Shown: positions 12,125 to 64,000 of the stretch, in pieces
Numbering within the stretch: position 1 is the stretch's first letter
Layout: each line of letters opens with the position of its first letter
NCBI RefSeq assembly: GCF_031583575.1
Contig: NZ_CP134146.1
Coordinates: 3,410,001-3,474,000, forward strand
From: Thalassotalea nanhaiensis
GTDB taxonomy: Bacteria; Pseudomonadota; Gammaproteobacteria; Enterobacterales; Alteromonadaceae
Length of the DNA: 64,000 bases
Direction of reading: 5' to 3'
Notes under the pieces: generated by a model
What the model was told of the DNA's origin: nothing
Database searches by the model: none
The model's input: the letters and a program-made list of their open reading frames with translations, nothing else
Position numbers and translations under genes: made by a program

Positions 12125-13924
12125 TTATCCGAACAGCTTATCGAGCTTATCTTTTAGTTTATCTTTAGCTTTGTTTTCTAATTCTTTTTTCTTTTTCTTA
12201 ACCACGTCCGACTTCAGAAGATTATCAAGTGATTTATCAGTGTTATTAAGTAGTGTGTCTACATCTGCAAACTCTGCGGCATCACTCTCGCTGACTTTGA
12301 GAGTCTGAGCTACTTTCTGATTTAAGCCCGATTTTAGCTGTTTTTGAAAAGTTGCAAGTTTAGCCTTGAGCTGATTAGCAATCGCCTTGGTGATTATATT
12401 ATCTAAATCAGATTTAATGCCATAATTTGGCGAGCTTAACTCACCTTCAATATCAACATTCAACGAGAATTTATTCACACTATCAATTGCTGACAATAAT
12501 GATCGGCCAACACTTGATGTTGATGCACCAGTAAATCTTGTGTCACTAACTTGGAATTTATTAATACTGTTTAAAGAAGTATCCACCAAATTAAATTGCC
12601 CAACCCCAGCAAGGTTCGCTGATTGCAATGCTAAAGAAAAATTGCCTTTATCGCGCAGTTTTGCATCATCAATGGGTACTTGAGAAAATTGCCAGTCACC
12701 TTTGGTAGTCGTAGTGATGTTGTCATTAAATATTTGTGTATTTATCAGTGCATCACCACCTTTTAATAAGTTTTTGCTACTAACAACGATGTTTGTTGGT
12801 ATGTTTCGATGCCAATGCTCTGCGGTCAATTCAGTAATTTCAAAGTTAAAACTGCCTTGTGGTAGTTCAACTTGAAATAATGCGGTTTTAATGAGCCAAG
12901 GCGGTAGCGGGTTTTCATCGACAAAATGAATAAAGCGACCGTACGCTAGACTTTTCTCTAATTCAGCTTGTTCAGCTGATTTAGCGGCTTTATTTGAATC
13001 TAAAAAGGGCTTTATACGAACGTATAACTGCTCTGCTGTCTCATAATACCCTCGAGCTTGTTCACCAAACAAAATATGGGCAAAATCGGCGTTATCGATT
13101 TTATCTAATTGGTACTGGCTTTTTAATTGACGCCAGTCGGCATCTGGGGCTGCTTTTACATCTTTTAATGCGTTAGCAAGAACATTTTTACTTTGTTCGA
13201 GCTGCTGCTTAGATTTTTTTACCAAAGCTTTATCTTGTTTGAATTGCTTTTTAAGGACATCAAAATCGCTTTTAAGTTTATTAAAATCTTCAATAGATTT
13301 TACTTTCGTTTTCGATAATTGTTTCACCTTTGCTTCATAAGATTTTAAAACATCTTTGGATGGTAAGTTAGCTTCCAGTTGTTTTAGTTTCTGTTTTTCA
13401 GCGTTATAAGTTTGCTCTAATTGTTTACCGGCTTTAACCGTTAATAAATTACTGTCATTAAGAATATCTTTTATATCAGGTAATTGGTCTTCAATTGCTG
13501 GCATTTGTTTTTCAATGCTTTCGCCTGTTGCCTGCACCAATGACGTGTCGGCATCTCTAAATACCTCTCCGGTTTTGGCCCGTTCAACATCAAAGGATAA
13601 CCCCGTAATAGACAGCTCTTCGATAAGCACTGTACCAAATAAGTATTGCCACACATCTACGCCAGCACTGGCGGATTTGAATGCAACAATGTTATGAGTC
13701 GGCTTTTCGTTGTCGGTTGCTTGCAGTTCGTTAACCGTAATAAATAACGGAGAATAATCAATATCGACACTATTAACATTAACCTCTGCACCTATATACC
13801 AACCACCTCCTTTTTCAAGGCTTAACTTTACAATTGATGGCGCAAGCATGAATAATATTGAAAATACAATTGCACACGTTGCGATAAACCCTAGGATCCC
13901 TTGCCATCGAAAATATTTACTCAT
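12125..13924 (-). CDS. TIGR03545-family membrane-anchored protein of unknown function
   Basis: A 599-residue protein matching the TIGR03545 family, conserved in marine gammaproteobacteria with no known role. One N-terminal membrane segment (about residues 10-32) is followed by a large, probably periplasmic part. The first ~120 residues after the membrane (VNVNSVDIDYSPLFITVNEL) resemble AsmA-like repeat edges. Residues ~160-260 are lysine/glutamine/leucine rich and should form coiled coil, and the last 30 residues are very lysine rich. It overlaps by one base (TAATG) with the TIGR03546 gene upstream, so the two are co-translated. The AsmA resemblance hints at envelope lipid or outer-membrane work, but that is inference. 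Confidence 0.75.
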   Translation of the reverse strand: MSKYFRWQGILGFIATCAIVFSILFMLAPSIVKLSLEKGGGWYIGAEVNVNSVDIDYSPLFITVNELQATDNEKPTHNIVAFKSASAGVDVWQYLFGTVLIEELSITGLSFDVERAKTGEVFRDADTSLVQATGESIEKQMPAIEDQLPDIKDILNDSNLLTVKAGKQLEQTYNAEKQKLKQLEANLPSKDVLKSYEAKVKQLSKTKVKSIEDFNKLKSDFDVLKKQFKQDKALVKKSKQQLEQSKNVLANALKDVKAAPDADWRQLKSQYQLDKIDNADFAHILFGEQARGYYETAEQLYVRIKPFLDSNKAAKSAEQAELEKSLAYGRFIHFVDENPLPPWLIKTALFQVELPQGSFNFEITELTAEHWHRNIPTNIVVSSKNLLKGGDALINTQIFNDNITTTTKGDWQFSQVPIDDAKLRDKGNFSLALQSANLAGVGQFNLVDTSLNSINKFQVSDTRFTGASTSSVGRSLLSAIDSVNKFSLNVDIEGELSSPNYGIKSDLDNIITKAIANQLKAKLATFQKQLKSGLNQKVAQTLKVSESDAAEFADVDTLLNNTDKSLDNLLKSDVVKKKKKELENKAKDKLKDKLDKLFG

Positions 13925-16864: not shown

Positions 16865-16892
16865 AAAAACCCCGTTATTACGGGGTTTTTTA
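16865..16892 (+). terminator. Terminator after DUF3545 gene
   Basis: A perfect 10-bp stem AAAAACCCCG / CGGGGTTTTT with a 6-base loop and a T run sits 23 bases after the stop codon. Confidence 0.92.
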
Positions 16893-17062
16893 ATTCAGGG
16901 AAGAATTAACTTAGAATTGCCAGGGATGGTTTGAATTCTGTTAATTCAGGGATGAATTAACTTAGAATTACCAGGGACCGTTCCTACGCATCCTCGGCAA
17001 TTGCTCCATGCATTGCTCTAATATACAACGTCCATGTTGAAAACGGTTTGAATTCTGTTAAT
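16890..17062. repeat. Short direct repeats with internal palindromes (dispersed-repeat-like)
   Basis: A 37-base unit occurs twice, at 16890-16926 and 16941-16977, with two differences and a period of 51. Each unit holds the inverted pair TTAATTC / GAATTAA around an AGGGA core. An 18-base segment (GGTTTGAATTCTGTTAAT) at 16928-16945 recurs exactly at 17045-17062. The stretch between 16978 and 17044 has no reading frame. It looks like a fragment of an intergenic repeat family that may exist elsewhere in the genome. Confidence 0.65.
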
Positions 17063-32307: not shown

Positions 32308-32418
32308 TAAATAGCCGATAATTGAGCTGATATTTCAAATAGTGGAATTGTTTTTTTGGAAGATCAGCTCAATAAATGCTATCTTTACCGTAGTTAATAT
32401 CGATCTATATATTGATAT

Positions 32419-32545
32419 TTCTCGCCGAGCTCAATGTTCTGCCCATGCACTACATGAATGAACATTGAGCCGTGGCACAAATGCAATTAGGTATTTGCCA
32501 CCAGGGTTAGCAAGGAAACTTTCTGGCCTCCCGACATTGGAAAGG
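32419..32545 (+). ncRNA. Moco (molybdenum cofactor) riboswitch
   Basis: The leader of moaA carries the Moco RNA motif. An 11-bp stem pairs 32429-32439 with 32460-32470, followed by CCGTGGC. A second hairpin runs 32472-32502, with GTGG/CCAC and CAAAT/ATTTG pairs. Then come the conserved CCAGGG...GGAAAC...CTGGCCTCCCGAC block and AAGGTG, which doubles as the moaA ribosome site just before the ATG. These blocks and their order match the family found upstream of moaA in E. coli. It is expected to block moa translation when the cofactor is plentiful. Confidence 0.88.
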
Positions 32546-32550
32546 TGAAC

Positions 32551-33522
32551 ATGTTACAAGACAACTTTGGTCGTAGGTTTTATTACCTGCGACTATCTAT
32601 TACTGACGTATGCAACTTTCGTTGCAACTATTGCTTACCCGATGGTTATGAATGCGATCACAATCGCGATTTTCTGTCGCTTGCAGAAATTAAACGTTTA
32701 GCGACGGGTTTTGCCAGCATGGGTACAGAAAAAATCCGCATTACCGGCGGAGAGCCATCGCTACGCAAAGACTTACCTGAAATTATACAAGCATGTAAAC
32801 AAACTAATGGAATTAATACCGTTGCTATCACTTCGAATGGGTTTAAATTAGTTGAGCATTTACCTACCTGGATAGACTCAGGCCTTGATGCATTAAACAT
32901 CAGTATTGATTCTTTCGACCCGCGCCAGTTTCAAGCAATTACTGGTAAAGACAAGCTCGATGAAGTGTTATCTGGTATTGATAATGGTTTGAGCGCTGGC
33001 TTTACTAACATAAAAATCAATACGGTATTAATGCGCGAATATAACGCACATGATCTCAATACCTTTTTCAATTATGTAAAAGACAAGCCAGTAAGCCTAC
33101 GCTTTATCGAATTGATGCAAACGGGTGATAATAAAGACTTTTACCAACAGCAGCACGTAAGTGGACAGCACATTAAAAATCAATTGCTGGCAAATGGCTG
33201 GCTGCCAACAATTCGCAATAAAACTGCCGGACCGGCTGAAGTTTATGCGCACCCTGATTACCAAGGTACCATTGGTTTAATCATGCCTTACTCAAAAGAT
33301 TTTTGTAATACCTGTAATCGTTTACGCGTCAGCTCGTTAGGCAAACTACATTTATGTTTGTTCGCTGATGAAGGGCTTTCATTGAAAGAGCAATTACAGA
33401 TTGACGATCCGCAGCCATTACAAAGCCGGATCATGAGTTTACTCAATGACAAACAAGCGACTCACTTCTTAAAAGACGGCTTCACTGGAGCAACCAAGCA
33501 TTTATCAATGTTAGGCGGATAA
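32551..33522 (+). CDS. moaA: GTP 3',8-cyclase MoaA (radical SAM)
   Basis: A 323-residue radical SAM enzyme that starts cofactor synthesis by converting GTP to 3',8-cyclo-GTP. The N-terminal cluster is CNFRCNYC (about residues 20-27). The C-terminal cluster has CNTCNRLRVSSLGKLHLC (about 252-269). The product ends in GG, as needed for activation. The ATG at 32551 sits ideally behind the AAGGTG of the riboswitch, so it is preferred to the GTG at 32545. It is the first gene of a ten-gene operon. Confidence 0.95.
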   Translation: MLQDNFGRRFYYLRLSITDVCNFRCNYCLPDGYECDHNRDFLSLAEIKRLATGFASMGTEKIRITGGEPSLRKDLPEIIQACKQTNGINTVAITSNGFKLVEHLPTWIDSGLDALNISIDSFDPRQFQAITGKDKLDEVLSGIDNGLSAGFTNIKINTVLMREYNAHDLNTFFNYVKDKPVSLRFIELMQTGDNKDFYQQQHVSGQHIKNQLLANGWLPTIRNKTAGPAEVYAHPDYQGTIGLIMPYSKDFCNTCNRLRVSSLGKLHLCLFADEGLSLKEQLQIDDPQPLQSRIMSLLNDKQATHFLKDGFTGATKHLSMLGG

Positions 33523-53997: not shown

Positions 53998-55482
53998 GTG
54001 CAAGATAAAAGAATTAAAAAAGTTGTCATTGCTGGTGGTGGAACTGCTGGTTGGATGGCCGCAGCAGCATTATCAAAGCTACTGGGCAAGAACCTTGATA
54101 TTACCCTGGTAGAATCTGATGAAATCGCAACCGTAGGTGTTGGGGAAGCAACGATACCAACGCTGCAATATTTTCATAAATTATTAAACATTAATGAAGC
54201 CGAGTTTTTAAAAGAAACTCATGGCACGTTTAAGTTAGGTATTAAGTTTGAAAATTGGCGCACTAAAAATGAAGATTATTTGCACGCCTTTGGTGTAACC
54301 GGTCAAGATTGTTGGGCTGCTGGCTTTCAGCATTTTTGGCTAAAAGGTCGCCAGCAAGGTATCGCCAGTGATTTTGGTGATTACTGCTTGGAGCAAGTAA
54401 GCGCGGTAAGCGAAAAATTTGCACACTTACCAAATAACGGCCTTAACTATGCCTATCACATTGATGCTACACGATATGGACAATATCTTAGAAAAATGAG
54501 CGAAGCTCATGGCGTTACGCGTGTTGAAGGAAAAATAGAACAAGTAAAACAAAATCATGAAACAGGCTTTATTGAGTCCTTAAGCCTAGCTAATGGCAAA
54601 GTAGTTGAAGGTGATTTATTTATCGACTGTACCGGTCAGCGCGCATTGTTAATTGAAGGGGCATTACACACTGGTTTTGAAGACTGGTCGCATTGGCTAC
54701 CTTGTGACTCTGCCATTGCAGTGCAAACTAAGTCGGTTGCTGAACCAATTCCATATACCCGCTCTATTGCTCATGACTTTGGTTGGCAGTGGCGCATCCC
54801 ATTACAGCACCGAGTTGGTAATGGTATGGTGTATTGCAGTAAATTTGTCAGCGATGAACAAGCCAAAGCTGTTCTTGAAGAAAACCTGGTCGGTGAAAAA
54901 ATTACCGAGCCACGAGTAATTAAGTATCGAACTGGTACAAGGCGTAAACATTGGAACAAAAACTGTGTTGCGGTTGGCCTTTCAAGTGGATTTTTAGAGC
55001 CTCTAGAGTCCACCAGCATTCACCTTATTCAACAATCAATTGTACGTTTAATGCGGATGTTTCCTCACACTGGAATTAAGCAAACTGATATTGATGAATT
55101 TAATTTGCAAACCAAGTTTGATACCGAAACAACCAGAGACTTTATCATTTTACATTATTGCCAGCACAATCGAAGCGATACAGAATTTTGGCGTCATTGT
55201 CGCAATATGCCGATCCCTGAGCGATTATCTCATCGTATTGAACTGTTTAAAGAAACAGGGCGAGTATTTCGTAAAAACAATGAATTGTTTGATGATTCAT
55301 GGATGCAGGTGATGATTGGTCAAGGTTTAATACCTGAAAGTTACCACCCTATTGTAGATAATATGAGTGATGATGAATTAGTTCGCTTTTTAGATCATAT
55401 AAAAACCAACATTAAAGGTACTGTAGGTCAGTTGCCAAATCATCAAGCTTTTATTAAGCAGTATTGCAATTCTGGCGATTAA
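53998..55482 (+). CDS. Flavin-dependent tryptophan-halogenase family protein (copy 2)
   Basis: A 494-residue relative of tryptophan halogenase. The start is GTG at 53998 behind an AGGTGA ribosome site. GGGTAGWMA is at residues 13-21, VGVGEATIPTLQ near 46, the catalytic-type lysine in GTFKLGIKFENW near 78, and the canonical WxWxIP motif in GWQWRIPLQHR near 262. All landmark residues of active flavin-dependent halogenases are therefore present, unlike copy 1. It is about 25% alike to copy 1 by eye, so the two are old paralogues rather than a recent duplication. It needs reduced FAD from a partner reductase that is not in this window. Confidence 0.88.
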   Translation: MQDKRIKKVVIAGGGTAGWMAAAALSKLLGKNLDITLVESDEIATVGVGEATIPTLQYFHKLLNINEAEFLKETHGTFKLGIKFENWRTKNEDYLHAFGVTGQDCWAAGFQHFWLKGRQQGIASDFGDYCLEQVSAVSEKFAHLPNNGLNYAYHIDATRYGQYLRKMSEAHGVTRVEGKIEQVKQNHETGFIESLSLANGKVVEGDLFIDCTGQRALLIEGALHTGFEDWSHWLPCDSAIAVQTKSVAEPIPYTRSIAHDFGWQWRIPLQHRVGNGMVYCSKFVSDEQAKAVLEENLVGEKITEPRVIKYRTGTRRKHWNKNCVAVGLSSGFLEPLESTSIHLIQQSIVRLMRMFPHTGIKQTDIDEFNLQTKFDTETTRDFIILHYCQHNRSDTEFWRHCRNMPIPERLSHRIELFKETGRVFRKNNELFDDSWMQVMIGQGLIPESYHPIVDNMSDDELVRFLDHIKTNIKGTVGQLPNHQAFIKQYCNSGD

Positions 55483-59622: not shown

Positions 59623-60297
59623 ATGCTAAATTACGAGCCAGATTTTTCTACGTATTCTTACGAAGAGTTATTAGATGCCAAAAGAAATATTGATAAAGAA
59701 AGCTATCCTCAAAGATATGAAACGATTGTTCAGCTATTGAGCGACCCTACTCGTGAACTTAACGCGAAAACCCAAGCTATAGAAGAGGTTGAAGTTAATA
59801 AATACTCAACTTTCTGGCCTCGTTTTTGGGCGGCTATAATCGACGGAATTGTATTTGCAATCATATTATATATTGAGTGTTTGGTCTTTGGAGTTGAATA
59901 CAGCACTCAAGATAAATTCCTTCAAGCCTTGAATGGCGTTCAATTTGCTATTTATGCCATTTTTATGCACGGCTATTTCGGTCAAACTCTTGGGAAAATG
60001 TTGATGAATGTTAAAGTACTTAATCATGACACAGAGTCTGAAATCGGTGTTAAACAGGCACTTCGCAGGGAATCAGTTAATTTAGCGATCAATATTTCTT
60101 GGGTGGTAATTATTATGATAGTCGCTACTTCATTAGAAATGTCTGGGACCATTTCAGAAAGCCTATCTTACACTGTCTTGGGATTTGGTATCTTAGCTAT
60201 GATTTGGGGTATATCTGAGTTTGTTACCATGTTATTTAATGATAAACGCAGAGCCCTACACGATTATATTGGAAAGACAGTGGTAGTACGTACATAA
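59623..60297 (+). CDS. RDD-family membrane protein (first gene of the cassette region)
   Basis: A 224-residue protein. It starts MLNYEPDFSTYSYEELLDAKRNID at 59623, a soluble N-terminal stretch typical of one RDD subgroup; an in-frame GTG at 59572 would add an extra hydrophobic run without a ribosome site. The RDD domain (about residues 75-220) has FWPRFWAAIIDGIVFAII, GQTLGKMLMNVKVL, and DKRRALHDYIGKTVVV, with four hydrophobic segments. Function of RDD proteins is mostly unknown; some transport ions or small solutes. A degenerate attC-like site follows at about 60292-60409. Confidence 0.75.
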   Translation: MLNYEPDFSTYSYEELLDAKRNIDKESYPQRYETIVQLLSDPTRELNAKTQAIEEVEVNKYSTFWPRFWAAIIDGIVFAIILYIECLVFGVEYSTQDKFLQALNGVQFAIYAIFMHGYFGQTLGKMLMNVKVLNHDTESEIGVKQALRRESVNLAINISWVVIIMIVATSLEMSGTISESLSYTVLGFGILAMIWGISEFVTMLFNDKRRALHDYIGKTVVVRT

Positions 60298-60409
60298 GTG
60301 ATTAAAGAATCAATACTTATAGCAGTAATAAGCGAGCAAGAGACATTCAATATCAAATTAAAAAGAGTAGGCGTTATTACTGAGATGTCTACTTAATAAA
60401 CTGTTATAC
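60292..60409 (+). other. Degenerate attC-like site after the RDD gene
   Basis: The right core GTTATAC (60403-60409) is the exact reverse complement of the left core of the next attC (GTATAAC, 60944), as expected for a cassette border. The left part (AAGTGATTAAAG) and the end (CTTAATAAACTGTTA) resemble the attC family but the stem is poor. A 9-bp inverted pair CAGTAATAA / TTATTACTG spans 60323-60382. Confidence 0.45.
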
Positions 60410-60433
60410 GTATCTCAAGTTAAGGAGAACAAT

Positions 60434-60949
60434 TTGAAATTCAAGGTAGAAATATCAAAAGCTGATTATGATGCATTTAATGCATACGCTTCATCCAAGT
60501 TATTAAAATCTCACTATTGGTTGGCAGTGATAAAAAACGTGATTCTTTGGTTAGTCTTAGGTGCAATATTTATGTCCTTTTTTCAATTCCTATCCGGAGG
60601 CATTGAGAGTAAATATTTTTACACCATTTTAGCGATATCAACTCCATTATTAATTTATATAGTTCTTGGGAAATTGGAGGAACATAAACTAGTCAAAAGT
60701 TTCACTCCAAATCAAAATGGAATTATGATTGGCTCTAAAGAATTCGAAATAAATTCAGATGGCATAAAGGAGACTCACCTTTTTGGTCATAACTTTTATA
60801 AATGGAACGTGGTTGAGAATATAGAAGAAGCAAATGGCTCTGTTTACGTTTTTGTTGATAAGGTTCTTGCTTTGATATTTACATCTGAGTCTTTTGAGTC
60901 AAAAGAAATTAAAGATGAGTTTCTATCTAAAGTGCAAAAATACGTATAA
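60434..60949 (+). CDS. YcxB-like membrane protein in cassette
   Basis: A 171-residue protein. It starts with TTG at 60434 behind AAGGAG, a proper ribosome site, so the unusual start is credible. Two hydrophobic segments lie at about 30-52 and 60-78. The C-terminal half (FEINSDGIKETHLFGHNFYKWNVVENIEEANGSVYVFVDKVLALI) matches the YcxB-like domain (PF14317), a cytoplasmic domain of unknown function. It fills one cassette: core GTTATAC before, attC with the stop codon inside its left core after. Confidence 0.75.
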   Translation: MKFKVEISKADYDAFNAYASSKLLKSHYWLAVIKNVILWLVLGAIFMSFFQFLSGGIESKYFYTILAISTPLLIYIVLGKLEEHKLVKSFTPNQNGIMIGSKEFEINSDGIKETHLFGHNFYKWNVVENIEEANGSVYVFVDKVLALIFTSESFESKEIKDEFLSKVQKYV

Positions 60950-61043
60950 CAAGGCGCTCAAGCAGGATGCAAAACAATTGGCTCGCGTTCGTGCCTCACT
61001 AATTTTAGCCAACTATTATTTACCCCTTAAATGGGCGTTTGGT
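60944..61043 (+). other. attC site A (100 bp)
   Basis: The left core is GTATAAC (60944-60950) followed by AAGGCGCTCAAGC. Inner arms AATTGGCT and AGCCAACT form the stem. The right end is CCCCTTAAATGGGC with core GTTTGGT (61037-61043). The stop codon of the YcxB-like gene is inside the left core. Confidence 0.75.
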
Positions 61044-61075
61044 ATTTAATAATACACATCAAAAATGGAGATAAA

Positions 61076-61567
61076 ATGAGTATTAATGAAATGGAAACAT
61101 TTGAATCACAACAAGAGTATGTTGGTTTTTGGGCTCGATTTGGGGCAACTATTATTGACTCTTTAATATTAATCGCAATTACTTTTCCTCTTTTACATTC
61201 AATCTATGGTAGCCAATATTGGGAAGCTGAAGAAATGATTGTAGGACTTCCTGATTTTTTAATTAGCTGGGTATTTCCCTTAGTGGCTACAATCCTGTTT
61301 TGGGTTTATAAATCAGCAACACCAGGGAAAATGGCTCTTAAAGTAAAAATTGTTGATGCTAAAACGGGAAATGCCCCCACGACTCAGCAATCTATAATTC
61401 GCTATGTTGGCTACTATATTTCTGCAATACCTCTTTGCCTAGGTTTTCTTTGGGTTGGCTGGGATTCAAAAAAGCAAGGGTGGCATGACAAGCTTGCGGG
61501 CACCGTAGTAATTGCTCCAAAAAATAAAGGCGTAGAAAACGTTTCTTTTTCAGAAAACAATACCTAA
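61076..61567 (+). CDS. RDD-family membrane protein in cassette
   Basis: A 163-residue RDD protein starting MSINEMETFE at 61076, with GGAG 5 bases before the ATG. A start at 61031 would lie inside attC A and is rejected. The RDD core has VGFWARFGATIIDSLILIAI (about residue 16), TPGKMALKVKIVDAKTG near 85 and DKLAGTVVIAP near 145. Three hydrophobic segments are visible. It is a different subtype from the 59623 gene, without the long N-terminal soluble stretch. Its stop TAA is part of the left core of the next attC. Confidence 0.8.
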   Translation: MSINEMETFESQQEYVGFWARFGATIIDSLILIAITFPLLHSIYGSQYWEAEEMIVGLPDFLISWVFPLVATILFWVYKSATPGKMALKVKIVDAKTGNAPTTQQSIIRYVGYYISAIPLCLGFLWVGWDSKKQGWHDKLAGTVVIAPKNKGVENVSFSENNT

Positions 61568-61624
61568 CAAGAGTTTAAAGTGGAACTGAGCAAACTGTTA
61601 ACGACCCTTTAATGGGCATTAGGA
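61562..61624 (+). other. Short attC site B (63 bp, left inner arm missing)
   Basis: The left core ACCTAAC (61562-61568) fits RYYYAAC exactly. The site runs AAGAGTTTAAAGTGGAACTG, then the right inner arm AGCAAACT and CCCTTTAATGGGC with ATTAGGA (61618-61624) instead of GTTAGGA. The left copy of the inner arm and the loop, found in the ~100-bp sites, are absent. Confidence 0.65.
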
Positions 61625-61631
61625 ATACCAA

Positions 61632-61988
61632 ATGAGTAGTGGAAGCTCTCAAGCAAATGCATTCTATGAAGAAGTTTCAGAAAACCAAAGGTTATGGTTT
61701 GCGGAAACTGAAAGTGGCGACGCTTTAGAATTTGATATCGACAATGATCAGGTATCCTTTCCTCTTTGGTCTTCTAAATCAAGAATTATAAGGTTAAAAA
61801 AACTTAATCCTGATTTGTTGGCTGAGTACTTACCGAGAGAGATCTCTTGGTTATTCTTCAAGGAAGTTTTAGCGCCTATGCTAATGGAGAATAAACGACT
61901 GATTGGTGTTAATCTCAATGGTCAAAACCTGACGGGTATTGATTTACCTGTAGAGTCTCTAATTAAACAAATAGAGGCTTTTGCGTAG
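61632..61988 (+). CDS. DUF2750-family protein in cassette
   Basis: A 118-residue cytoplasmic protein with the DUF2750 pattern: ANAFYEEVSENQRLWFAETESGDALEF, VSFPLWSSKSRIIR, then FFKEVLAPMLMENKRLIGVNLNGQ. It is distantly related to the chromosomal DUF2750 gene at 42742, not a recent copy. It is the single gene of a cassette of about 470 bp, between attC B and attC C. Function unknown. Confidence 0.8.
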   Translation: MSSGSSQANAFYEEVSENQRLWFAETESGDALEFDIDNDQVSFPLWSSKSRIIRLKKLNPDLLAEYLPREISWLFFKEVLAPMLMENKRLIGVNLNGQNLTGIDLPVESLIKQIEAFA

Positions 61989-61994
61989 GGTGTT

Positions 61995-62095
61995 TCCTAA
62001 CAAGCAGTTAAAGCGGGACTTATTACAGTTTGCTCGGCTCCGCTTCGCTTAACATTTTAGCAAACTATTATCAGCCCCTTAAATGGGCGTTAGTT
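61995..62095 (+). other. attC site C (101 bp)
   Basis: Left core TCCTAAC (61995-62001), then AAGCAGTTAAAGCGGGACT. Inner arms AGTTTGCT and AGCAAACT pair perfectly, and the right end CAGCCCCTTAAATGGGC leads to core GTTAGTT (62089-62095). TCCTAAC is the reverse complement of GTTAGGA, and the cassette's own 5' end reads TTAGGA. Confidence 0.9.
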
Positions 62096-62156
62096 GCTCT
62101 AAAAGGTTTGGAGCACAATCAACATAAATTATAACTACAACAATAAGGAAATAATA

Positions 62157-63020
62157 ATGCGTTTAGGACTACTATATTTTTTTGTCATGTTTTTCTCCGC
62201 CTCTGTTTACTCTCAAGATGATGAATATTTAACCCAAGTACAACAGCTTGATTGGAAAGGTGCTGCTGAAGGTTATGAAATCCCTTCAAATGATGCAAAA
62301 ATTTCAGTCAGTGAAAATGAATACTTAGTTTTAGGAAAAGATGCTCATAAATTCATGCTTCTGACAGAAGGTCATGACGGGTTTAAGCCAGATGCAGTTA
62401 AACTAAAAATCCATGCTGATGAATCTGAATCTACAGCAATCTATCAACGTAATGATATAGGTTTCGTTAAAACTGACGATTGGGAAGAAAACATTGATGC
62501 TGATGATATGCTGTCACAAATTACTGAAGGAACAGAAGAAGCAAATAAAATAAGAGCCGAAGGTCATCCAAAATTATATATTGATGGGTGGGCACAGCCT
62601 CCATTCTTAGATAAAGATAATTCTATTATTTATTGGGCTATCAACGGCCATACAAGTGACAATAGAAAATTTATTAATGCTAAAGCACTGAAATTAGGTC
62701 GAAAAGGTTATACCGATGTGATTTGGACTGGTTTACCAGAGCAATTTACAAATGCGGAAACTGTATTGGAGCCAGTTTTGGCAAGTTACTCATATAATGA
62801 AGGATTTCAATATGATGATTTTATGCCTGAAACAGATACTGTTGCTGCAATGGGAGCTGGAGCATTAGTTTATAAATTAGCTACAGGAAAAGCAGCTGTT
62901 AAAGCTGGTTTTATCGCTGCAGCAGCAATTTTTGCTAAAAAGTTTTGGTTTATTATATTTCTACCATTCGTTTATGGTTGGAAATGGATTAAGAACAAAT
63001 TTTCCAATAAATCAGAATGA
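62157..63020 (+). CDS. DUF2167-family exported membrane protein in cassette
   Basis: A 287-residue precursor. The signal peptide (about residues 1-19) ends VYSQ. The extracytoplasmic part follows, with LDWKGAAEGYEIP near residue 31 and the family stretch YIDGWAQPPFLDKDNSIIYWAI near residue 139. Near the C-terminus (ALVYKLATGKAAVKAGFIAAAAIFAKKFWFIIFLPFV) lies a membrane anchor. This fits DUF2167, predicted membrane-anchored proteins of unknown role. A ribosome site AAGGAA lies before the ATG. It is the largest cassette in view. Confidence 0.8.
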   Translation: MRLGLLYFFVMFFSASVYSQDDEYLTQVQQLDWKGAAEGYEIPSNDAKISVSENEYLVLGKDAHKFMLLTEGHDGFKPDAVKLKIHADESESTAIYQRNDIGFVKTDDWEENIDADDMLSQITEGTEEANKIRAEGHPKLYIDGWAQPPFLDKDNSIIYWAINGHTSDNRKFINAKALKLGRKGYTDVIWTGLPEQFTNAETVLEPVLASYSYNEGFQYDDFMPETDTVAAMGAGALVYKLATGKAAVKAGFIAAAAIFAKKFWFIIFLPFVYGWKWIKNKFSNKSE

Positions 63021-63022
63021 GC

Positions 63023-63120
63023 AACTAACAAGCTGTTCAAGCGGGACTAATTACAGTTGGCTGTTTCGCTCCGCTCACATTATAGCCAACTATTATCAGC
63101 CCCTTATTGGGGCGTTATGT
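63023..63120 (+). other. attC site D (98 bp)
   Basis: Left core AACTAAC (63023-63029), AAGCTGTTCAAGCGGGACT, then inner arms AGTTGGCT and AGCCAACT, right end CAGCCCCTTATTGGGGC and core GTTATGT (63114-63120). AACTAAC is the exact reverse complement of the GTTAGTT that opens this cassette at 62089. Confidence 0.9.
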
Positions 63121-63136
63121 ATTCAAGGAAGGTTTA

Positions 63137-63634
63137 GTGAATAATTCAAATAAAATAATAATAAGTTTACTTGTTGCTAATTTAGCTGCAACTGTATGGT
63201 TTGGTACTAACACTACAGCAGTAGTATCAAGTCAAAAACCTTATGAGAAAGCGTCTCAGCATCAATTACCAGATTTAATCAATAGTTCTGTAAAGTCTGA
63301 AATTCTAAACACATTTATTAAACATTTTAATTCCAAGAATTATGATGCTTTATACGATATGTTTGGTCCAGTAGCTAAAGCTCAAATTCCAAGAAAAGAC
63401 ATGGATGTAGAGTTTGGTAAATTAACCAAATACTTTCATAGCGTTGAGAGCGGTAGTTTCAGTTTTGCGGAATTTTCCGGGCAGCAAGGCAGCTCAACAG
63501 TGTATGTACTCAATTACACAGTAAATCTTTCTGAAAAAAGTGATTTTGGAGAAATTGGCACTTTAAAGATTACTATTGCAATTGATGGTAATGAGTATCA
63601 AATTTACGGTATTCGATTAAACGGTGAAACGTAG
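63137..63634 (+). CDS. Small anchored protein, DUF3887-like, in cassette
   Basis: A 165-residue protein starting at GTG 63137, behind AAGGAAGG; a TTG at 63107 would lie inside attC D. The N-terminus has one hydrophobic segment (about residues 6-24) that could be a signal or anchor. The rest, ILNTFIKHFNSKNYDALYDMFGPVAKAQIP and the strand-rich end, looks like an NTF2/DUF3887-type domain. The family call is tentative. Function unknown. Confidence 0.65.
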   Translation: MNNSNKIIISLLVANLAATVWFGTNTTAVVSSQKPYEKASQHQLPDLINSSVKSEILNTFIKHFNSKNYDALYDMFGPVAKAQIPRKDMDVEFGKLTKYFHSVESGSFSFAEFSGQQGSSTVYVLNYTVNLSEKSDFGEIGTLKITIAIDGNEYQIYGIRLNGET

Positions 63635-63641
63635 TAAGAAT

Positions 63642-63743
63642 ATATAACTAGCCAATTAAAACGGGACTGCTAACAGCTTGCTCAGTTCCGCTTCGCTACA
63701 CAAGTTTAGCAAGCTATTATAAGCCCATCATTAGGGGTTATAT
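63642..63743 (+). other. attC site E (102 bp)
   Basis: Left core ATATAAC (63642-63648), AATTAAAACGGGACTGC, inner arms AGCTTGCT and AGCAAGCT, and right core GTTATAT (63737-63743). The left and right cores are perfect reverse complements. The inner arms differ from sites C and D but still pair. Confidence 0.88.
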
Positions 63744-63768
63744 GCCTAAAAGGAGAAAAGTGTAAATT

Positions 63769-64000
63769 ATGGATAATACAGAAATCATTATATTAGTTGT
63801 ATTTGGAGCTTTGTTTCTATTCGAACTATGGGCTGTTATCCAGTCCATATTGGCTAAGAGTTGGAGTACAACTAAAGGTGAAGTATTAGAATCTGATTTA
63901 GATGTTGATCATCGAGGTGGAGCAACAGTTGCTATTAAATATTCTTATTCAGTTAATGGCAAAGAGTACACATCCTCTAACTCTGTATTTGGTTATGTTG
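63769..64000 (+). CDS. DUF3592-like membrane protein, 5' part (runs off window)
   Basis: The first 77 codons of a gene cut by the window end. The peptide starts MDNTEIIILVVFGALFLFELW, a membrane segment. It goes on to SWSTTKGEVLESDLDVDHRGGATVAIKYSYSVNGKEY, which is the pattern of DUF3592 domain proteins (a beta-rich domain between membrane helices). AGGAG lies about 14 bases before the ATG. It is the first gene after attC E, so it probably fills the next cassette. Confidence 0.65.
   Translation, partial: MDNTEIIILVVFGALFLFELWAVIQSILAKSWSTTKGEVLESDLDVDHRGGATVAIKYSYSVNGKEYTSSNSVFGYV

Follow-up and report, generated by a model that had tools for sequence, protein, structure and literature searches.

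The last part of a 64 kb window (64,000 nucleotides, bases 3,410,001–3,474,000 of the 4.31 Mb single-contig chromosome of Thalassotalea nanhaiensis, here labeled G000) carries an array of six gene cassettes with attC recombination sites, which extends from 60404 to 64268 and has no integrase alongside. (Positions beyond the window end are also given in the numbering of a stretch labeled L012, in which 6177 corresponds to window position 64177.) The array is probably an integron that has lost its integrase, retaining an attI site of a second integrase type, IntI-B, six cassettes and a defined right border; it would have been built by IntI-B before the integrase disappeared. A preliminary description of this DNA had correctly recognized gene cassettes and attC sites of the Vibrio cholerae repeat kind, of which a covariance model finds four strong examples in the window and another just beyond it. 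The attI at the left border was not recognized in that description.

Integron integrases scored above the family cut-off in 14 of 15 genomes of the genus, and the second type, IntI-B, was present in three of them (G009, G002 and G012). IntI-B of G009 is 42% identical to IntI-A, the resident integrase of G000. The attI sites beside intI-B in these three genomes have a common motif, and a matrix was trained on the three sites, none of which comes from G000. When the matrix was run over 505,216 positions of G000 stretches, representing part of the genome, it returned five distinct places at 27.9–35.7 bits, with the next place at 14.3 bits. Four of the five are the left borders of cassette clusters: those at 268k, 1647k and 3076k, and the reported array, where the site occupies 60368–60408 on the plus strand, like the cassettes, their attC sites and the RDD gene described below, with its crossover at 60403/60404 and a matrix score of 32.5 bits. 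The fifth place, at 1681k (L018 8952–9720), heads a gene that seems, by eye, to be followed by a different attC family. The complementarity between cassette starts and ends (11 nt), which is blind to attI, places the start of cassette 1 on the same base as the attI crossover, and over 51 nt the head shares 82% identity with the intI-B-linked attI of G012. R2, a covariance model made from eight attI-B sites, scores the reported site at 42.9 bits (E 1.4e-11), the site being itself one of its members. A pattern scan of the whole genome found five sites without mismatch, none with one or two mismatches and six with three (14 in the reversed control); the pattern was derived from the same five sites, and the scan is informative solely for the lack of further copies. 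Judged by its sequence, the left border is an attI of the IntI-B type, not the attI of the resident integrase. A repeat of the attI end was suspected at L012 6434 and rejected, having 9–11 matches of 27–30 positions to the type B sites, as was a LexA box in the palindromes upstream of attI-B, in which the spacing was wrong by eye.

No IntI-B was found in the G000 genome. The genome has a single integron integrase above the family cut-off, on the minus strand at 54,185–55,132 (452.6 bits), before the main array and, given a circular chromosome, about 0.9 Mb from the reported one; two weak integrase-family matches at 1678 kb fall in a recombinase frame of 216 aa. In the array region, no tblastn match to intI was better than E 0.3, in agreement with the preliminary description, which had seen no integrase on the left side and had offered a cluster of attC sites lacking integron-integrases (CALIN) as one option. 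The array is indeed a CALIN in the sense of IntegronFinder, in that attC sites, as called by the model R1 described below, form an array with no integron integrase nearby. It has the attI at its head expected of a complete integron, and lacks an intI beside attI and cassettes.

R1 was built from 41 aligned attC sites of the main array of the same genome; its consensus fold has 20 pairs, 13 of which show changes on both sides. Over the whole genome R1 found 66 attC sites at E < 0.001, located in six chromosomal places and all on the plus strand. In the window it found four strong sites and one decayed site, all inside the reported interval, and a fifth strong site begins 177 bp beyond the window end; scores in the array are 65.0–97.5 bits, plus 19.1 bits for the decayed site. 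Elsewhere in the 64 kb, the sole match at E up to 10 was at 12998–13097 (16.8 bits, E 0.15). Weak minus-strand matches (17–21 bits) on three of the array sites are expected, because attC sites are near-palindromic. R1 does not find the putative attC family after the 1681k place, and no Rfam family reached its gathering score over the array sites. When the reported stretch was searched as DNA against the genome, 45 places matched: its own location and 44 others that are short and attC-sized, lying in the main array (56–78 kb), in a group at 268–276 kb, and at 1647, 3076 and 3869 kb. The best attC match to the main array was 92% over 95 nt, and by sequence comparison the sites of the two arrays are of the same stock. 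No cassette gene common to the array and the rest of the genome was returned by this search, only attC-sized matches.

The cassette boundaries were placed by the complementarity of starts and ends, which agree at 58 of 66 positions; of 720 possible pairings, only the observed one reaches 58. Cassette 1 (60404–61037) carries an open reading frame (ORF) at 60434–60949 that is YcxB-like, and its attC lies at 60944–61043 (65.0 bits). Cassette 2 (61038–61618; ORF 61076–61567, RDD family) ends in the decayed attC at 61562–61624 (19.1 bits), the middle of which is lost; its inner arm is 91% complementary to the inner arm of the site at 63642, as if inverted. Cassette 3 (61619–62089; ORF 61632–61988, DUF2750) has its attC at 61995–62095 (97.5 bits), cassette 4 (62090–63114; ORF 62157–63020, DUF2167) at 63023–63120 (90.2 bits), and cassette 5 (63115–63737; ORF 63137–63634, DUF3887) at 63642–63743 (76.8 bits). 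Cassette 6 (63738–64268, the window part extending to 64000; ORF 63769–64182, DUF3592) is closed beyond the window by the attC at 64177–64274 (L012 6177–6274; 66.9 bits). This last attC ends 274 bp past the window, contrary to the suggestion that the array continued to the right.

To the left of attI, at 59623–60297, lies another gene of the RDD family (Pfam), with which the preliminary description had begun the array. The small cassette genes are confirmed from 60434 onward, whereas this gene belongs to the flank, and R1 finds no attC after it (7.6 bits, E 9.5). A decayed attC was considered at 60301–60409, between the RDD gene and cassette 1, and was rejected because R1 gave only 7.6 bits and the stretch matches attI. 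Of the seven genes, six score above the Pfam cut-off (RDD, YcxB, RDD, DUF2750, DUF2167 and DUF3592), the DUF3887 match of the seventh falling below it; the claim that all are of unknown function was therefore too broad, although most of these families do have no known function. A search for anti-phage systems gave a single match at noise level (E 0.0024).

A locus at 1,057 kb in G010, one of the two genomes closest to G000 by the protein of the major facilitator superfamily (MFS) gene (96% aa), consists of one cassette between counterparts of the attI stretch (85% over 86 bp, window 60324–60408) and of the right end (90% over 49 bp) of the reported array. The likeness on the left includes the stretch before the crossover (60299–60403, 78% over 105 nt). 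The neighborhoods are different, and neither genome has an integrase alongside. Since both ends recur in G010, the array is delimited on either side. G009 carries a complete IntI-B integron with IntI-B, attI and many attC sites (the second integron of that genome, 2749–2759 kb; L118 5874–6833 and L034 10776–15379) precisely between purL and the MFS gene; its orientation relative to these genes matches that of the reported array. The distance from purL to the MFS gene is 0.1–8 kb in the 12 relatives that have both on one stretch, and 66 kb in G000, where window positions from about 1831 to 56289 form a chromosomal block between the two genes that is collinear elsewhere in G005 and G010 (both block ends were searched). 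We considered purL–MFS, the place of the G009 integron, as a possible ancestral location of the array; the right end, however, matches the 1,057 kb locus of G010. Nor could the side-by-side purL and MFS genes of relatives serve as a clean empty site, because the left flank here is the rearranged block.

Across the 15 genomes, R2 found 17 sites at E 1.3e-5 or better, including its eight members. Only three are beside intI-B, and the other 14 have no integrase alongside. An attC recognized by R1 follows on the same strand in 15 of the 17, one of them weak (21 bits); the exceptions are 1681k and the G010 1,057 kb site, whose last attC is collapsed, by eye. Nine of the genomes have no R2 site at E < 0.01. 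G014, in which the integron integrase family gave no match, has four attI-B sites and at least nine R1 attC sites (E up to 0.001). Two integrase-less arrays, G001 2670k and G009 3906k, have instead a head related to the attI that belongs to the resident integrase (67% over 180 nt in the first and 68% over 164 nt in the second).

In total, 24 attC clusters, chosen among the attC matches listed, were examined. Seven had been taken because R2 matched (three in G014, G002_533k, G009_3538k, G010_2749k and G012_C21), and one, G004_2201k, has a broken integrase. Among the 16 picked by attC alone, nine heads scored above all 3,760 background G|TT sites; two were marginal (p 0.009 and 0.017), one was unconvincing (p 0.097), and four (G000_3868k, G005_4369k, G005_3672k and G006_C43) had no trusted left border. 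A set of 19 heads was obtained by excluding G004_2201k and six unplaced clusters (these four, plus G010_2749k and G012_C21, which have an R2 site in or before the cluster) and adding G000_1681k and G010_1057k. In this set, found partly via R2, 15 of 19 heads exceed all of the background sites; the G010_1057k head scores 15.6, compared to a background maximum of 10.0. G008_996k had two equally long border candidates, of which the attI-like one was used. The head scores are gapless, and the attI of a Proteus integron (see below), which is one base shorter, scores −10.8 even though R2 finds the site.

The upstream extent of these likenesses differs between the two kinds of head. When integrase-linked attI regions were compared with each other, 11 pairs were reported. 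In eight of them the alignment takes in the integrase gene and runs past −1,150, and in three it ends between −86 and −125; two of these three involve the resident integron of G000, where a gene separates intI from attI. (This gene, at L014 5200–5780 or 55.2–55.8 kb in the genome, is acetyltransferase-like, as named by eye.) Integrase-less heads align with integrase-linked regions to about −38 to −242, and with each other up to −267. In the 1.5 kb upstream of 20 heads, tblastn detected integrase sequence in one, the broken copy in G004, and none at the reported array. In 16 of the 19 heads, the first upstream ORF with a length of 60 aa or more is directed toward attI. In four head pairs, conservation is higher in a 46-nt core than in the preceding stretch (p 1e-4 to 0.03); for the G000 heads at 1647k and 3076k, 45 of 46 core positions agree, compared to 37 of 54 upstream (p 1e-4). 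This better conservation of the core may have arisen while there was still an integrase.

IntI-B-like sequences are also found outside the genus. In a plasmid collection, the best match to G009 IntI-B, at 74.5% identity, is the integrase of a Proteus mirabilis record (NZ_OL790812), where it adjoins dfrA1; R2 finds a site of 28.9 bits between the two genes, placing the motif at the expected attI position in an unrelated host. We take this integron to be the class 4 / IntI9 integron of SXT-type elements. In an Alteromonas record the best R2 match before the integrase was weak (13.8 bits), and in a Pseudoalteromonas record R2 gave no match. An attI-B-like site was also seen on a Klebsiella michiganensis plasmid (NZ_CP058119, L213 4001–4035), preceding a hypothetical ORF that is flanked on the far side by an IS3-like element; the gene table for the 8 kb shown, which is incomplete, lists no integrase.

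The reading that we favor is that an IntI-B integrase, acting at its own attI, would have built the array, that the integrase gene was then lost while attI and cassettes stayed, and that this probably happened before G000 and G010 separated. Because its attC sites and those of the main array share one stock, cassettes may still be excised or added in trans by the resident IntI-A. In support of integrase loss, four of the five attI-B places in G000 are cluster left borders, that of the reported array included; the cassette complementarity independently sets this border on the same base; IntI-B is absent from G000; an R2 site lies between the IntI-B-like integrase and dfrA1 in Proteus; G009 has the same kind of attI beside intI-B and a full array; and G010 has both borders in common with the reported array and no integrase there. 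We also count in favor of loss the 2202 kb locus of G004, where a broken intI stands beside attI and attC and the integrase is in the course of decay. Several observations weigh against this reading. Apart from G004, no integrase stump was found within 1.5 kb upstream of the reported head or 18 others, although more such remnants might be anticipated if simple loss had occurred repeatedly. Furthermore, the G000 and G010 neighborhoods differ beyond about −105 and +50, which is not explained by loss alone, and the gene between intI and attI in the resident integron indicates that changes at the upstream edge of attI occur without loss of the integrase.

The same absence of stumps, at 19 of 20 heads, would be accounted for if attI, with about 100–270 nt upstream, and its cassettes were copied or moved without an integrase and served in trans by any IntI present. 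Such satellite integrons would resemble non-autonomous transposons that depend on a full-length partner. We regard this as a possible, if tentative, origin for the reported array; the wider claim that many integrase-less arrays of the genus are non-autonomous satellites rather than decayed fragments, with predicted upkeep in trans, appears to us unlikely. In G000, four clusters are headed by an attI-B of their own and all four lack an integrase, and the G001 2670k and G009 3906k arrays carry a relative of the resident integrase's attI. The 1647k and 3076k cores look as if they had been maintained without IntI-B, although their conservation may stem from a period with an integrase, and the array recurs with both ends in another neighborhood in G010. 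However, action of an IntI on a foreign attI is an assumption of this explanation, no IntI was found in G014 despite its four such heads, and no empty site with clean junctions was obtained. No attI-copying mechanism was found, and we know of none.

Alternatively, the resident integrase could have inserted cassettes at chance genomic sites (attG), the left border being merely attI-like. Insertion at attG has been described, as cited in PMC12444791 and PMC12901181, and some left borders in the genus are indeed little like attI (G004_314k, p 0.097; G010_1935k, 0.017; G010_1159k, 0.009). For the reported array, whose left border is not a chance genomic site, this is very improbable: 15 of 19 heads score above every background G|TT site, and upstream of the crossover the likeness to integrase-linked attI reaches about 38 to 242 nt, beyond what a target motif would be expected to need. 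The proposal of the preliminary description that the array is a displaced piece of the resident superintegron, for which the common stock of the attC sites (up to 92% identity) and the rearranged neighborhood could be cited, is hardly tenable, since the array is bounded on both sides by its own right border and an attI of an absent integrase type, and the DNA search of the genome returned attC-sized matches but no cassette gene in common.

The array can be compared to several known systems. CALINs likewise are attC arrays without a nearby integrase, and have been proposed to be degraded integrons; the reported array differs in having a recognizable attI and both borders. PMC9024848, PMC12444791, PMC12901181 and PMC9229058 deal with CALINs and delta-attI cassettes and with decay as the proposed origin of CALINs; the first of these papers gives 2,961 CALINs and 2,760 complete integrons in one survey. 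With the sedentary chromosomal integron of the same genome (the superintegron at 54–78 kb) the array has in common an attI, co-oriented cassettes and attC sites of the same stock, but it has no integrase, an attI of another type and only six cassettes. It has the same kind of attI as the Proteus dfrA1 integron, which keeps its integrase, while the reported array is chromosomal and without one. The delta-attI cassettes of mobile integrons, as presented in PMC12901181, similarly have attI away from the integrase and directly after an ORF (here the RDD gene); there, an attI piece replaces attC inside a mobile integron, whereas here attI heads a chromosomal array. In Vibrio cholerae the cassette promoter starts 65 bp upstream of attI (PMC3948777), so that the kept upstream stretch could hold a promoter; no sign of one was found here, the heads showing no promoter-like signal for the cassette promoter Pc above shuffled sequences. 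Within the accessible portion of the open-licence literature, we found no description of attI at CALIN heads and no paper with integrons of Thalassotalea as its subject by title.

An IS3-family element lies to the right of the array (L012 6833–8042; ends by eye), with no obvious target duplication. Elsewhere in the window there is an interspersed repeat at 16882–17043, with tens of copies in related genomes, and a molybdenum cofactor riboswitch at 32409–32563 (86.6 bits).

CALINs may originate by decay, by dispersal or by insertion at chance sites. Outside class 1, attI is not looked for, and the telling part can therefore be overlooked. Placing the left border through the complementarity of cassette starts and ends needs no prior knowledge of attI, which makes the question of origin testable in any genome. 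In the present case, several arrays of one genome would derive from a second integrase type that is absent from that genome, and similar headless arrays in related bacteria hint at a source of integrase-less cassette clusters.

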